This document shows, in pieces, positions 30,677 through 38,970 of a stretch of 64,000 bases of DNA. The stretch spans positions 62,001 through 126,000 of the forward strand of contig JAAFJP010000015.1 in NCBI GenBank assembly GCA_013298125.1, read 5' to 3'. Source of the stretch: Cytophagales bacterium. Lineage in GTDB: Bacteria > Bacteroidota > Bacteroidia > Cytophagales > Spirosomataceae. Positions within the stretch are counted from its first letter, which is position 1; each line of letters opens with the position of its first letter. Below the pieces are notes generated by a model. That model was given only the letters and a program-made list of their open reading frames with translations, had not been told where the DNA came from and searched no databases. The position numbers and the translations under genes are program-made.

Positions 30677-31537
30677 TTACCTACGAACAATATGCCCAAC
30701 AATCTCCCCTGAATAATCGTCAAACTGTGGCTCTTCAATGATTTTCTTTGAGGTCGGTACTGATTCCAAAACTCTCAAAGCCTTGTCGTAAGAAGCAAAA
30801 AGGTTTCTTGATGATGGGCGACTTACTAAAATATCAAAAGTGTAATTTTTATCCTTTGCTGTTTGATTTAGCAAGGTCAAATACCCAAAATTACGGGCAG
30901 ATTTCTCTTGGATTCCTTCTTCTGTTTCCAAATCAAACGCCAAAGGTTTAACCAAATGTTTTTGAAGATTCTGCCAAGCGTATTCAAACTTTAAGGTCAA
31001 TTCGGGCGATTCTACGATAATATCTTTCTGCAAATATTGTTCAACGTCTTTACTCTTGGCAATGATATTTTTATATAGTTTTTGACTAATATATTTTTCG
31101 TTGCGTTGATGCTCTTTTTGCTCTTGCTCTTCATAATCACCGAAGTAAAGCTCATAATAAGACTTTGCTAAACCGTTGAAATCGTCCGTATCAAGCACGC
31201 CTACACGCAAATCGCTGAACTGTAAGGCAGTGGCATCTTCTAATAAAAATTCACGGGCTATGAATGTTCTTTGGTCTTTTAGAATTTCGTCCGAAAACAA
31301 ATTCCAATCACTACTTACTTGCTGTACTTTTTGCTTAATCCCTTTCAAATGTGCCTTAACGAGCCATTCAGAGAAGTTTTGGTAAGTGTGTGATAATCTT
31401 GAAAGTTTTTGGGGAGCGTGAAAAATAACTTGTTTTTGCTCTGGAAAAATGAACAAAATACCCACGTTCAAGGCTTCTCCTGACGAAGCTGAATGCACGT
31501 ATCGTAAGAGGCTATATGTGAAAATGTTGGTGTTCAT
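30677..31537 (-). CDS. DUF3037 domain-containing protein
   Basis: FTYSLLRYVHSASSGEALNVGILFIFPEQKQVIFHAP; 4-nt overlap with upstream HipA-like gene. Confidence 0.8.
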   Translation of the reverse strand: MNTNIFTYSLLRYVHSASSGEALNVGILFIFPEQKQVIFHAPQKLSRLSHTYQNFSEWLVKAHLKGIKQKVQQVSSDWNLFSDEILKDQRTFIAREFLLEDATALQFSDLRVGVLDTDDFNGLAKSYYELYFGDYEEQEQKEHQRNEKYISQKLYKNIIAKSKDVEQYLQKDIIVESPELTLKFEYAWQNLQKHLVKPLAFDLETEEGIQEKSARNFGYLTLLNQTAKDKNYTFDILVSRPSSRNLFASYDKALRVLESVPTSKKIIEEPQFDDYSGEIVGHIVRR

Positions 31538-32334
31538 TGGAGTATTCCTTTCAAAAGGGTTACAAATTTATAACTATTTTGCTTAGTATGTTGCAAATAG
31601 AGTTTTAAAATTTCAATATCAGGCATCGGGAAGTTAAGTTCCTCTAATTGAGCCACATACGAATTTATCTTATTAACGTTCAACCGCTTCAATAGTTCTT
31701 CAAAGTCATTAAAATACTCTGATTTAGTCTGTTTACTGTGACCTAATAAGAACGGATAAAACACATGATTCTTATAAAGGTATGTCCAATTTTGAGTTTC
31801 CAAATCTTTAAAATGCTCTAAATCAATTATTAAACAGTATTCATGGTCTATCAAATAAATGTCGTGATTGAGTAATAATAAATTAGTCTTTTCAGTAAAA
31901 CGTCTATCAAAATTTCGTACCAAGTTATCGAATGCAAAAACCGTGTCAATTCCCATAAGTCCCTCCAAAGTATTTTTGGCAATGTTTTCGCCAAAATTAT
32001 TTGCACCTGGCAAAAACTCGCAACCAAAATTTAGATAAGCCTTTTTTTGCTTAATTTCCTCTTGTAAATCTTTTGAAAGTGTTTGTAAAAAACCCTTATT
32101 GAAACGAATATAGGCGGGTGAGGGCGACAATAGTTCAAATTCATCTGCCAAAGCCACCGTCAGCACATCACGAGCGATGGACAAGTTGTTTTGAACTTCA
32201 ACTTCACTGTAAAGTTTTACAACGTATTGTTTGAGTTTACCCTCTTCATCTCTGACCGTTACAATTATTGGACGTGTTCTCCCTCCTTTCATTATTCGGC
32301 TCTCAAAGGCTATGGCATCGTAGATTGGTAACAA
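31534..32334 (-). CDS. HipA-like kinase (HipA_2-type)
   Basis: RIMKGGRTRPIIVTVRDEEGKLKQYVVKLY...VFAFDNLVRNFDRRFTEKTNLLLLNHDIYLIDHEY; paired with DUF3037. Confidence 0.78.
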   Translation of the reverse strand: MLPIYDAIAFESRIMKGGRTRPIIVTVRDEEGKLKQYVVKLYSEVEVQNNLSIARDVLTVALADEFELLSPSPAYIRFNKGFLQTLSKDLQEEIKQKKAYLNFGCEFLPGANNFGENIAKNTLEGLMGIDTVFAFDNLVRNFDRRFTEKTNLLLLNHDIYLIDHEYCLIIDLEHFKDLETQNWTYLYKNHVFYPFLLGHSKQTKSEYFNDFEELLKRLNVNKINSYVAQLEELNFPMPDIEILKLYLQHTKQNSYKFVTLLKGILQ

Positions 32335-32575: not shown

Positions 32576-35500
32576 ATGAATCCACAAGCACGTACACGTA
32601 AACCTGAAACACCACTTAAACCCGTAGGAAATGAACATTTTGCTGTATTTATCAATATCGCACGCCACAATGCTTTTATTGCTATCACTGAGCTAAGTAA
32701 AATCTACGGTATGACTCCTCCCAATGAAGATGAATTAGCTACATCTCGTTTTATAGCCGCCTTTGACTCCACAACAATTGATGTACGTAAGCTAAAACAG
32801 CGATTGAAAAGACTTTCAAGTTTGATGCCTTTTTTGAAATCTTTACAGGATAAAACCGATGCTGAAATTATCGGAATCCTTAAAGACCTCCTCTCTCTTG
32901 TTAATCAATTTAGAAACTACTATTCTCACTATAATACTTCCGATTTTCTCACAATCAATAGTAACGAATTTATTACTTCTGATAAAGTTTCAATCTTAGA
33001 AAATATTTTTGAAAAGGCTGTCTTATCATTAACCAATTCAGAAAAGGCTTATGATAGATTTGAAATTATTTCTTTACTGAAAAGTGAAAAACGAGCGGAT
33101 AAGCCTTATTTCTATGAATTTATCGAAAACAACAAAATCTCTGAAAAAGCTATTGCTTTCTTCTTCTGTTTGTTTTTGGATAAACCCAACGCCATGAAGT
33201 TCTTAAAAAGGCTCAAAGGATTTAAAGGGGCTGATACTAAGCAATTTAGAGCAACTTTGGAAGCCTATACGACTTACTGTATTCAGTTACCTGAACCTAA
33301 ATTTCTATCTGACCGACCAAATCTTGCCATAATCTTAGACGGAATCGAACATCTAAAAAGGTGTCCAATTGAAGTTCATAAAACCCTTAGTTTCAGAGAC
33401 AAACAAAAATTTGAACGAAAAGTAATGAGGGAAGACCTCAATGGGGACTTGCAGGAGGAAAATATTGAATTACTCAGATATGATGATAGATTCGCTGAGT
33501 TTGCCATGCGTTATTTGGATGATTTTGATATTTTGTCCGATGCCAAAAAACAGAACACATACCGTTTTGAAATTCAATTAGGAAAGAAGGTGGTAGAATC
33601 TAAAAAATTGGCAGAAGAAACTACCGAGGCACAGGATAAAATCCCTGTCAGGTTCAAGCCTGTGAAGGCATTTGGCAAATTGGCGGATATTCCTCGTAAG
33701 AAAGATGAAGCCGTTATTGACTGGCAACAAGATTTGGAAGAACTATACGCTTACGAACCTCATTACAAGATTGAAAATCACTCTATTGGTATCAAGAAAA
33801 TTGCAACCGAAGATACTTTTCGTTTGAACAATCCCGAAGAATTACCTGATGCTTATCTGAGTGAATATCAGTTGCGTAACATTATTTTTCTGAGTTTAGA
33901 ATCAAGCAACAAAGAAGAATTTTTCATGGCTTGCCAAATACGGATTGGTAAAATCAAAAGCCTATACAAAGCTCTCTCAGCACCTACACACTACAAAGAA
34001 AGCATAAAGCAAAAATATAATGAGCTGATTAACAATAATTTACTACCTAAGCCATTGGTCAAATACTTAACGCATAGTTTAGACGAATTGCCAACTTACA
34101 AATCAAAAGCCATCAAAAAATTGAAGTTTTGGCAAGACGAAACAGAAAATTTATTGGCGGAAGTCAAAAGACATAATGAGAAATCGGAGAAGGCTCGAAA
34201 GGAAAATAAATTCTTTAAGTCCTTCTTGAAATCAGGGCAAATAGCTACTTGGTTGATAAAAGATATTCAGCACTTTTTGCCTTTGCAAGGTAAACTTTCT
34301 GTGCTAAAATATAATGCACTTCAAGCTAAATTGGCGATTTACAATTCGGAAGAATTGAAAGAGATGCTCACTGATTTTCAAGTCTATGATACCCCAAAAG
34401 GAACGGACAGAAATATGCCTGAAAAAGGCGGAGGGCATCAATTTATCAAGACTGTTTTTGATAAAAATCCCCAAAAATTACCTCCTCATTGGTTGCATTT
34501 TTATAATGATTACCTCAATGCTAAAAAGCAATGGATTGAAGACAAAATCAAGTTTCTGACAGCCATGCCAGACACTGAGGCTGAAATTATGAAGCAACAG
34601 CCACTTTTCTACTTTTTGGATTTAGGTTCAAATTATGAAGAGGGTGAGAAAATAGTCTATTTCCGTGAGAACTCGCCCGCATACATAGCCAAGTATTGCG
34701 AAGAGTTACTCAAAAAGCCCGTTGATTTACCGATTGCCCTGAGCTATGACCTTGTGGCTAATATGCGTACAGGCTTAGAAAAAGCTAAATCTGTTACCGA
34801 TTTTATTGACGATAAATATCAATCAGAACCTCCATATTATCATCTCCCAAGACAATACGATTTATTCAAAGCATTTGGCGATAAACCTTCTGAAAAACTG
34901 TTTGCTACTGACAAAAAGCCCCTGCATGAAGTGTATGGAGAGTATAAAGCCAAGAAAACAGATCCAAGAACGATTAAAAAGATAAAGGGATTTTTAGACC
35001 AAGAACAACGCATCCGATACCTGAAAGTTTGTGATAAACTCTTGGTGAAAATATTAGAAAAATACCTTGCCAAAGAAACGGAGCTTAAAAACGTTCAATT
35101 GACGGACGCACAAGGAAAATTGATTTTGGATAAAGTGTTAGAGACAGAATTTGAAATGCCTCCCTATGGTTTCAAGGTGCGTTTGAAGGACTATGGACGT
35201 TATCGCCGTTTTGTCAAAGACCGCCGATTGGTTTCTATGCAAGACTATCTCAATCAAAGTGTCTTTACGCCCGACACGCTCATTACAGAATTAAATCTTT
35301 ACGAAAAACAGCGAAGTGAGTTTTTGAAAATAGTGCTTGAATTTGAAAAACGACTTTTGTCTGCCTCAGACACATTGAACATTAACTTAGCTGACCAACA
35401 AACAACATTAGGTGAGGATAAAATACGAGACTACATAACCCACAACTACCTTTTGGAAGTGGCTTTACGAAATAATTTTATCTCAGAAAATGAAGCAAGA

Positions 35501-35653
35501 GCCATGTTGTGGTTTAGAAATGGAGCATTGCATAACCAATTGCCCGACCTACAAAAATTAGTAGGTTTGATTGATACCGAAGAACAAAAAACACAAAGAT
35601 ACTTTCTGAAAGGAATGGAAATGTATAAAAAAGGAATTGAGAAAATATCATAA
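32576..35653 (+). CDS. cas13b: CRISPR-associated RNA-guided RNase Cas13b-like effector (type VI-B)
   Basis: 1025 aa; terminal HEPN motifs RxxxxH: R113NYYSH118 (nt 32912-32929) and R981NGALH986 (nt 35516-35533); followed at once by a 36-bp-repeat array of VI-B form (GTTG...ACAAC). Confidence 0.95.
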   Translation: MNPQARTRKPETPLKPVGNEHFAVFINIARHNAFIAITELSKIYGMTPPNEDELATSRFIAAFDSTTIDVRKLKQRLKRLSSLMPFLKSLQDKTDAEIIGILKDLLSLVNQFRNYYSHYNTSDFLTINSNEFITSDKVSILENIFEKAVLSLTNSEKAYDRFEIISLLKSEKRADKPYFYEFIENNKISEKAIAFFFCLFLDKPNAMKFLKRLKGFKGADTKQFRATLEAYTTYCIQLPEPKFLSDRPNLAIILDGIEHLKRCPIEVHKTLSFRDKQKFERKVMREDLNGDLQEENIELLRYDDRFAEFAMRYLDDFDILSDAKKQNTYRFEIQLGKKVVESKKLAEETTEAQDKIPVRFKPVKAFGKLADIPRKKDEAVIDWQQDLEELYAYEPHYKIENHSIGIKKIATEDTFRLNNPEELPDAYLSEYQLRNIIFLSLESSNKEEFFMACQIRIGKIKSLYKALSAPTHYKESIKQKYNELINNNLLPKPLVKYLTHSLDELPTYKSKAIKKLKFWQDETENLLAEVKRHNEKSEKARKENKFFKSFLKSGQIATWLIKDIQHFLPLQGKLSVLKYNALQAKLAIYNSEELKEMLTDFQVYDTPKGTDRNMPEKGGGHQFIKTVFDKNPQKLPPHWLHFYNDYLNAKKQWIEDKIKFLTAMPDTEAEIMKQQPLFYFLDLGSNYEEGEKIVYFRENSPAYIAKYCEELLKKPVDLPIALSYDLVANMRTGLEKAKSVTDFIDDKYQSEPPYYHLPRQYDLFKAFGDKPSEKLFATDKKPLHEVYGEYKAKKTDPRTIKKIKGFLDQEQRIRYLKVCDKLLVKILEKYLAKETELKNVQLTDAQGKLILDKVLETEFEMPPYGFKVRLKDYGRYRRFVKDRRLVSMQDYLNQSVFTPDTLITELNLYEKQRSEFLKIVLEFEKRLLSASDTLNINLADQQTTLGEDKIRDYITHNYLLEVALRNNFISENEARAMLWFRNGALHNQLPDLQKLVGLIDTEEQKTQRYFLKGMEMYKKGIEKIS

Positions 35654-35686
35654 CTCACAGATATTGAATAACTTATAATGTCCAGC

Positions 35687-38087
35687 GTTGTTACAGCCCT
35701 TAGTTTGTAGGGTAATGACAACTCTTTTCATTAATTATCATAAGCCTTTCAGTTGTTACAGCCCTTAGTTTGTAGGGTAATGACAACAATTAATCAACTT
35801 TGGTAGAACACTATTAAGTTGTTACAGCCCTTAGTTTGTAGGGTAATGACAACAGGTGGTCAAACCAGTAATTTTCAATCAAAGTTGTTACAGCTCTTAG
35901 TTTGTAGGGTAATGACAACCATACTGGAATTATCGTTACTACGCCCCCTGTTGTTACAGCCCTTAGTTTGTAGGGTAATGACAACAAGTTTGACAATATT
36001 TCGCATCAATCAATGGTTGTTACAGCCCTTAGTTTGTAGGGTAATGACAACAAAGAACTCCATATCCGCAATGTGCCAACCGTTGTTACAGCCCTTAGTT
36101 TGTAGGGTAATGACAACCAGGACGACAAGCGTATATTGTCCAAAACGTTGTTACAGCCCTTAGTTTGTAGGGTAATGACAACTGGTTTTTGTAAAGATTG
36201 TCAATGTGTAAAGTTGTTACAGCCCTTAGTTTGTAGGGTAATGACAACCACTGATACCCAATTTTCAATTCTCTTTTTGTTGTTACAGCCCTTAGTTTGT
36301 AGGGTAATGACAACAGTAAATGGTTTTGTTAGGGTTCTTTTTTCGTTGTTACAGCCCTTAGTTTATAGAGTAATGACAACACCTGTATATGATGATTTTT
36401 GCATTGGATGTTGTTACAGCCCTTAGTTTGTAGAGTAAATGACAACTTCTCTTATTAGCTGATTTTTTAGCGTGAGTTGTTACAACCCTTAGTTTGTAGG
36501 GTAATGACAACTTAAATTGTTTTAATACATCTCCTTTACTTGTTGTTACAGCCCTTAGTTTGTAGGGAAATGACAACTATTTTTCAATATATTGTTGTAT
36601 TGTTAAGTTGTTACAGCCCTTAGTTTGTAGGGCAATGACAACACATAACATTGAATTTAAAACGTTGATAATGTTGTTATAGCCCTTAGTTTGTAGGGTA
36701 ATGACAACAGTCATTTCCCATGATTAAATTTACCAATAGTTGTTACAGCCCTTAGTTTGTAGGGTAATGACAACACATAATTTACAGCGTTTGCATTTCA
36801 AAATAGTTGTTACAGCCCTTAGTTTGTAGGGTAATGACAACTATCTGGTAGTATTCATAAAATCCGCTGTGGTTGTTACAGCCCTTAGTTTGTAGGGTAA
36901 TGACAACTAAAATCTGTGTTGAGTGATTTGATTTCCAGTTGTTACAGCCCTTAGTTTGTAGGGTAATGACAACTTGAAAGTGTTACTAAACTGTTTCAAA
37001 AGGTTATTACAGCCCTTAGTTTGTAGGGTAATGACAACCATCGTCCACGTGAGCCGTATTTTTCTCAGTTGTTACAACCCTTAGTTTGTAGGGTAATGAC
37101 AACTAAATCCTAAAATCATTGTTTTTGTTGGTGTTTTTACAGCCCTTAGTTTGTAGGGTAATGACAGCTGTCATAATATTTGTGTTTTAATTCCGACCGT
37201 TGTTACAGCCCTTAGTTTTTAGGGTAATGACAACAAGACTGTCAAGTTTCATGGCAACTTTATGTTGTTACAGCCCTTAGTTTGTAGGGTAATGACAACC
37301 ATTTCAATAAAACATTTAATTGTTGTAAAGTTGTTACAGCCCTTAGTTTGTAGGGTAATGACAACAGGGTGATAATCAAAATATTTTGCCGCTTTGTTGT
37401 TACAGCCCTTAGTTTGTAGGGTAATGACAACTATTCCCTGTTCTTCGTAAATATTGACGTTGTTGTTACAGCCCTTAGTTTGTAGGGTAATGACAACCAA
37501 AAGGCATTATTGAATCATCAAACATAGTTGTTACAGCCCTTAGTTTGTAGGGTAATGACAACACATTTACTCAATTATCCAATCTGGGGTAAGTTGTTAC
37601 AGCCCTTAGTTTGTAAGGTAATGACAACTGGACTCGTATCGCTTTGTATTACCTGTTCGTTGTTACAGCCCTTAGTTTGTAGGGTAATGACAATAATTTA
37701 TCAGTCAATACCTGTCAATCTCAGTTGTTACAGCCCTTAGTTTGTAGGGTAATGACAACCAAAGTCCGTCATCAACAGCACTTTTTCGGTTGTTACAGCC
37801 CTTAGTTTGTAGGGTAATGACAACCTAATGAAAGTAGAGTGATGATTAGTAAGTGTTGTTACAGCCCTTAGTTTGTAGGGTAATGACAACTCATACCGTT
37901 TGATAAGTTTTAATGATTTTGTTGTTATAGCCCTTAGTTTGTAGGGTAATGACAATAAGGCTCAACAAAGCCCCATTTGATTAGGGTTGTTACAGCCCTT
38001 AGTTTGTAGGGTAATGACAACAAAAGTTTCAATTTCCTATATACTAAAAAAGTTGTCGCAGCTCTTAGCTTGTAGAGTATTGACAGC
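35687..38087 (+). CRISPR. CRISPR array, 37 repeats (36 + terminal degenerate) / 36 spacers, consensus GTTGTTACAGCCCTTAGTTTGTAGGGTAATGACAAC
   Basis: Repeat starts counted by eye: 35687, 35752, 35818, 35884, 35950, 36016, 36082, 36147, 36213, 36279, 36345, 36410, 36476, 36542, 36607, 36673, 36739, 36806, 36872, 36938, 37003, 37068, 37133, 37199, 37264, 37330, 37396, 37462, 37527, 37593, 37659, 37724, 37789, 37855, 37921, 37986, 38052; spacers 29-31 nt. Confidence 0.99.
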
Positions 38088-38097
38088 GGATTTTATT

Positions 38098-38105
38098 TAC
38101 ATTTG
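38098..38105 (+). promoter_or_regulatory. Candidate -7 element TACATTTG (TAnnTTTG) just after the array
   Basis: Exact match, 18 nt before ATG of the 38124 ORF. Confidence 0.4.
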
Positions 38106-38123
38106 TAAGAAAAAAGAAAATTT

Positions 38124-38657
38124 ATGAAGCCAGAAACAACCCTTAGTGATGTTCTTTTAACCGCTTTGCTTACCGCCCTTGCTTCGGGTTTAGCGTCCAG
38201 TTTATTGAGTTATTTTTTTTGGAGAAGACAAAAGAAAGACGAAATCAATTACGGTATTCGTAATGCTCATTACGTAAAAGCCCAAGAAGCCCTCATGGCA
38301 ACATGGAGTTTATTAGGCAGAATGACTGATACAGAGAATCCGCAAAGTATTTTGGTGTGGGAAAAAGCAAAAGATAAGACCGTTACCTACGTTCTCAGAG
38401 TAGCCCAAGCACAAGAATTTATGAGTGATTTGTCGGAAGTATTCTACAAAAAAGGGTACGGTATTTTCCTAAATCAAGACATCAAATCACTATTGTTTGA
38501 GTATCGGAGCATTTTATACGGTCTATTACTCAGTGAAAAGAGTAACGCAGAGCCACAATTTGTAGTAAAAAATGAAGAAGTCGTTGAAAGAATGAAAAAA
38601 ATCTATGAAGAGCTAAACAAAGCCCTTCAAGAAGAGATGAATGTATCGGTAAACTAA
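38124..38657 (+). CDS. single-TM small protein next to Cas13b array, Csx28-like candidate accessory
   Basis: 177 aa; N-terminal hydrophobic segment LLTALLTALASGLASSLLSYFF then WRRQKK and a helical cytosolic domain; starts 36 nt after the last repeat, same strand. Confidence 0.65.
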   Translation: MKPETTLSDVLLTALLTALASGLASSLLSYFFWRRQKKDEINYGIRNAHYVKAQEALMATWSLLGRMTDTENPQSILVWEKAKDKTVTYVLRVAQAQEFMSDLSEVFYKKGYGIFLNQDIKSLLFEYRSILYGLLLSEKSNAEPQFVVKNEEVVERMKKIYEELNKALQEEMNVSVN

Positions 38658-38670
38658 TATCTCCCAAAAT

Positions 38671-38722
38671 AAAAGCTAAAAGAGCATTCACACAATTTGT
38701 ATGGATGCTCTTTTAGCTTTTA
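38671..38722. terminator. Rho-independent terminator closing the type VI-B locus
   Basis: AAAAGCTAAAAGAGCATtcacacaatttgtatggATGCTCTTTTAGCTTTT. Confidence 0.85.
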
Positions 38723-38860
38723 TTTTCTCACTATTTATCAAGAAAGTCTTTAAAAATGACTGGCGAAAGTTTCACATTCATTTTTTTACGGAAGATAAAA
38801 TGAAATATTTTTAAAAAATCAAAATATTTTCTACTTACCCATTTGCTTACCCAATCAATA

Positions 38861-38895: not shown

Positions 38896-38897
38896 AG

Positions 38898-38970
38898 TGG
38901 TAAAAGGCGGACTCGAACCGCCGACACACGGATTTTCAGTCCGATGCTCTACCAACTGAGCTATTTCACC
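38898..38970 (-). tRNA. tRNA-Phe (GAA)
   Basis: Reverse strand GGTGAAATAGCTCAGTTGGTAGAGCATCGGACTGAAAATCCGTGTGTCGGCGGTTCGAGTCCGCCTTTTACCA, anticodon GAA, cloverleaf arms pair. Confidence 0.96.

Follow-up and report, generated by a model that had tools for sequence, protein, structure and literature searches.

The Csx28 protein of S. buccae (Segatella/Prevotella; PbuCsx28, PDB 8gi1) is an octameric inner-membrane pore that depolarizes the membrane after activation of Cas13b (PMC12669027, PMC13288109). Pore formation, depolarization, and dependence on Cas13b have been published for the VI-B2 Csx28 (PMC12669027, PMC13288109, PMC13153721). The family has been described with a HEPN domain, and the S. 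buccae pore as positively charged and RNA-binding (PMC13153721); the mechanism of pore activation is stated to be unclear (PMC11014256, PMC12642688). Plasmid interference by the P. gingivalis VI-B2 system has been discussed as the action of Cas13b followed by that of Csx28 (PMC13187072). Csx27 of type VI-B1 is likewise a small membrane protein encoded beside cas13b, but it belongs to a different family.

We compared these systems with a locus in the 64,000-nucleotide stretch of DNA from a Cytophagales bacterium analyzed here (the window). The window protein and S. buccae Csx28 share a length of 177 aa, a single N-terminal transmembrane (TM) helix, the fold, the TEN..SILxWEK and EYRxIxYG blocks, the Arg of the HEPN-type motif, and linkage to cas13b. 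They differ in that His157 of S. buccae Csx28 corresponds to Tyr161 in the window protein, and in that csx28 abuts cas13b in S. buccae whereas it lies beyond the array in the window. These are the two uncommon features of the window locus: the position of csx28 beyond the array and the loss of half of the supposed RNase motif. We consider it very likely that the gene is the csx28 of a VI-B2 system and that its product acts as a pore downstream of Cas13b, with a HEPN-like domain that has a structural or regulatory role.

Assignment to the Csx28 family

A full-length, intact reading frame with an ATG start was found at 38124–38657 on the plus strand. The 177-aa product scored 134.4 bits (4e-39) against NF040556, the NCBI equivalog model for Csx28, with 160 of the 172 positions aligned; the curated cut-off of this model is 50 bits. 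The PADLOC profiles tm_HEPN and Csx28 matched the protein at 1.7e-45 and 3.5e-44, respectively, and its sequence matched PDB 8gi1 at an E value of 8e-26. No significant match to Pfam was obtained. The identity to S. buccae Csx28 was 33–39%, and the distance from that protein was no greater than that of other family members.

The monomer was modeled with AlphaFold2 without templates, using three homologues (pLDDT 82, pTM 0.68). In a Foldseek search, 8gi1 was the sole match at E ≤0.001 (E 1.7e-8; probability 1.00; target-normalized TM score 0.79). By the model and the structure search, the predicted monomer has the Csx28 fold, with one long TM helix and a HEPN-like helical domain. Hydropathy analysis gave a single N-terminal TM segment, placed at aa 10–32 (38151–38219, plus strand): the hydrophobicity peaked at aa 10–28 (Kyte-Doolittle value, 1.98), and all other segments remained below 0.75. 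The basic sequence WRRQKK (aa 33–38; 38220–38237, plus strand) directly follows the TM helix, and aa 7–64 form one continuous helix in the model. These results establish the family membership and the predicted monomer fold; judged from sequence and model together, the reading frame is real and its product is Csx28, an ordinary member of the family. The N-terminal helix and WRRQKK described in the original prediction were therefore recovered, and its guess of a Csx28-like protein was borne out by profile, sequence, and fold, the last of which was not an unrelated one. Its choice between a strongly diverged Csx28 and a new membrane accessory was too cautious, given the score far above the cut-off and the identity to the S. 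buccae protein.

The possibility that the protein is another membrane accessory, either Csx27 or a CARF-TM/Cam1-type effector, would agree with a weak PADLOC match to CARF_TM (E 0.029) and with the occurrence of Csx27-type VI-B systems in the same bacterial family (G130 and G122). However, the Csx27/tm_4 profile of PADLOC did not match the protein that the Csx28 profile matched so strongly, and the single TM segment and the sole fold match point to Csx28. This possibility is already contradicted by profile and fold, and its probability is negligible.

The HEPN-type motif and the proposed role of Csx28

No RxxxxH sequence was found anywhere in the 177-aa protein, as had been predicted. In the alignments, R156-MKKI-Y161 (38589–38606, plus strand) occupies the position of R152-MKKI-H157 in S. 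buccae Csx28, with His replaced by Tyr, which establishes the loss of the motif His. The aligned sequences of the other three Csx28 proteins are RLFALA (G811), RIQTIR (G1155), and RVWAIR (G1141). The motif Arg is invariant in all five proteins, whereas the His is present in one (H, Y, A, R, and R). RxxxxH is not a hallmark of the Csx28 family, because the His column varies and members above the curated cut-off lack the motif; its absence, common to most of the members examined, is not aberrant in the window protein.

HEPN RNases normally require the motif His, and RNase catalysis through this motif is unlikely in the window Csx28, because this protein lacks the His and the family does not conserve it. 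The variation represented by RMKKIY argues against an acid-base RNase role of the motif in most of the five proteins. The HEPN-like domain of the window Csx28 is thus unlikely to be a nuclease and would be structural or regulatory. The His requirement and the absence of RxxxxH in the window protein and in three of the four other Csx28 proteins also count against a window Csx28 that acts as a HEPN ribonuclease with the pore being secondary. Such a ribonuclease, which we regard as very improbable, would fit the invariant motif Arg and the description of the family with a HEPN domain (PMC13153721). A natural Csx28 lacking the His, together with the five-member comparison in which the Arg alone is conserved, makes the RNase role of the motif directly testable.

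The net charge of the window Csx28 is −1, versus +6 for S. buccae Csx28, so the chemistry of the ring or its RNA binding may differ. This difference, the missing His, and the 2.4 kb that separate csx28 from cas13b would be expected of a protein that is a true Csx28 by descent and has been uncoupled from cas13b, losing the His and decaying or losing its function. In contrast, the frame is intact and full-length, and the alignment indicates that all family-invariant residues (Y108, G111, G113, F115, R128, G133, N150, E152, and R156) are kept. Moreover, the gene has its own promoter-like element and a strong terminator, and the His is also absent in three Csx28 proteins encoded in intact, operon-like pairs with cas13b. 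We therefore judge decay or loss of function to be quite unlikely and retain a functional Csx28 pore as the preferred reading.

In the proposed mechanism, Cas13b and the crRNAs of the array would sense phage RNA. Csx28, predicted to cross the inner membrane once and to place a helical HEPN-like domain in the cytosol, would assemble into a ring, and this ring would serve as the pore downstream of Cas13b and depolarize the inner membrane. The depolarization would slow the cell and strengthen the defense. By analogy with PbuCsx28, the window Csx28 most likely forms an octamer and a pore, depolarizes the membrane, and depends on cleavage by Cas13b.

Gene order and type of the CRISPR locus

The window cas13b (32576–35653, plus strand) encodes a 1025-aa protein that scored 447.6 bits against NCBIfam NF038190 (cut-off, 150 bits) and matched the PADLOC Cas13b profile at 7e-129. 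Both of its HEPN motifs, RNYYSH (aa 113) and RNGALH (aa 981), are intact. The first repeat begins 33 nt after the cas13b stop, and the array (35687–38087, plus strand) consists of 37 repeats of 36 nt (GTTGTTACAGCCCTTAGTTTGTAGGGTAATGACAAC) and 36 spacers of 29–31 nt. The last repeat ends at 38087 and the csx28 frame starts at 38124, giving a gap of exactly 36 nt, in agreement with the original prediction. The window array gave no match to known phages. By gene content, with an intact two-HEPN cas13b, csx28, and a 36-nt-repeat array, the locus is of type VI-B2. The cas13b with two HEPN motifs, csx28, the 36-nt repeats with ~30-nt spacers, and the lack of a cas1 of its own are VI-B2 features, and the locus is active-looking from its sequence. 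Cas1 (PF01867) was not detected anywhere in the source genome, which is 95.5% complete. The genome thus carries a 37-repeat array without a detectable Cas1, and spacer acquisition would therefore need outside factors, or the array is static.

The VI-B2 system of P. gingivalis AJW4 resembles the window locus in having cas13b, csx28, 36-nt repeats, and ~30-nt spacers, but its csx28 immediately precedes the leader and the array, whereas the window array lies between the two genes (PMC13187072). A leader-repeat hairpin forms in P. gingivalis AJW4; unlike many VI-B systems, none was predicted in the window at 35507–35722 (PMC13187072), where repeat 1, folded together with 33–180 nt of upstream sequence, is predicted to pair internally.

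We searched for Csx28 in 1,823 genomes, comprising the window's own family (223 genomes), samples of its phylum and class, and all those taken from the family and order to which S. buccae belongs. Proteins above the cut-off were found in five species: the window species, S. buccae, G811, G1155, and G1141. Linkage to cas13b was established in every one of them: cas13b adjoins csx28 in all four other species and belongs to the same locus in the window. The refuting case named in the original prediction, homologues unlinked to cas13b, was thus not observed among the species with a Csx28. In these four, csx28 either adjoins cas13b at its 3′ end or overlaps it there, and the array lies downstream of csx28 in S. 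buccae and G811 and upstream of cas13b in G1155 and G1141. The window csx28 does not abut cas13b, since the 2.4-kb array intervenes; abutment is the order observed elsewhere, not a defining feature. The order cas13b-array-csx28 was found in the window alone when compared with the four other loci and the published P. gingivalis locus, a small sample, and it may exist elsewhere. With three array positions seen, the array occupies all possible places among these VI-B2 loci. With the array in between, the window csx28 also lacks translational coupling to cas13b, and this order allows csx28 expression to be separated from cas13b in a native context. Weak profile matches in G556 (inside a 722-aa glycosidase-like frame) and G1572 (21 bits, five internal stops) were rejected as chance matches, and no Csx28 relative was found in plasmids, phages, or IMG/VR contigs.

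The window Cas13b is very diverged, sharing 22–24% identity with the Cas13b proteins of the other csx28 loci. In a poorly resolved seven-protein tree, it joined a Csx27-linked Cas13b (support, 0.79), apart from the csx28-linked ones. This divergence and tree placement count against the Csx28 reading that we prefer.

Two genomes of the same bacterial family carry Csx27-type loci. G122 encodes a divergent 1132-aa Cas13b and a 229-aa Csx27-like protein (L024:1737-5829), and G130 encodes Cas13b, an array, and a 206-aa Csx27 that is intact with a GTG start (L025:6409-10771). Csx27- and Csx28-type systems therefore coexist in one bacterial family. In G040, of the same genus, a divergent Cas13b-like gene (L023:6027-9422) is apparently split into two frames of 912 and 135 aa that carry one HEPN motif apiece. 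The gene lies next to an array with a 66-nt period and looks disrupted.

Putative expression of csx28 and flanking genes

The terminal (37th) repeat (38052–38087, plus strand) is changed at 7 of its 36 positions and keeps all 12 stem pairs, including a compensatory change from C12-G25 to U12-A25. The chance of keeping the 12 pairs is 0.007 for random substitutions and 0.057 for a transition-rich set. The repeat sits 3′ of the spacer in VI-B systems (PMC8209922), and the kept pairs therefore fit a last crRNA that needs this repeat. The A29T change creates TTGACA at 38080–38085, 12 nt before TACATTTG, a candidate Bacteroidota −7 element for csx28 assigned by consensus match (38098–38105, plus strand). 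A candidate TTG lies 15 nt upstream of TACATTTG, within the terminal repeat, at a spacing below the usual one. Matches of this type are expected ~0.02 times by chance in the 36-nt gap. The motif occurs in 3.6% of 36-mers with ≥72% A+T and the gap itself is 83% A+T, for which reason the promoter is only suggestive. The TAnnTTTG element described for csx28 in the original prediction is thus present. The claimed terminator was found as a strong 25-bp hairpin at 38666–38727 (plus strand; −34.1 kcal/mol, z = −11), which is probably bidirectional because A/T tracts flank both sides.

In P. gingivalis, the array and the cas genes upstream of it are transcribed together (PMC13187072). Between the window array and csx28, no convincing terminator was found on the plus strand, and a transcript of cas13b and the array could plausibly read through into csx28. 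Expression of csx28 probably proceeds from a promoter of its own within the 36-nt gap, by read-through of this cas13b-array transcript, or by both. In an extended reading, which we regard as unlikely, Csx28 would be a pore whose motif is non-catalytic in most of the family, cas13b, the array, and csx28 would form one transcript, and Cas13b, in processing its pre-crRNA, would cut at the structurally preserved terminal repeat and free the csx28 mRNA, tying the dose of the membrane effector to Cas13b activity.

Divergent from cas13b, the minus strand at 30677–32334 encodes a HipA-like kinase (PF20613, PADLOC PDC-M66A) and a DUF3037 protein (PDC-M66B), a candidate defense pair beside the CRISPR locus. 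A tRNA-Phe gene (38897–38970, minus strand) lies directly behind csx28, and given this tRNA the CRISPR module may be located at a tRNA insertion hotspot.
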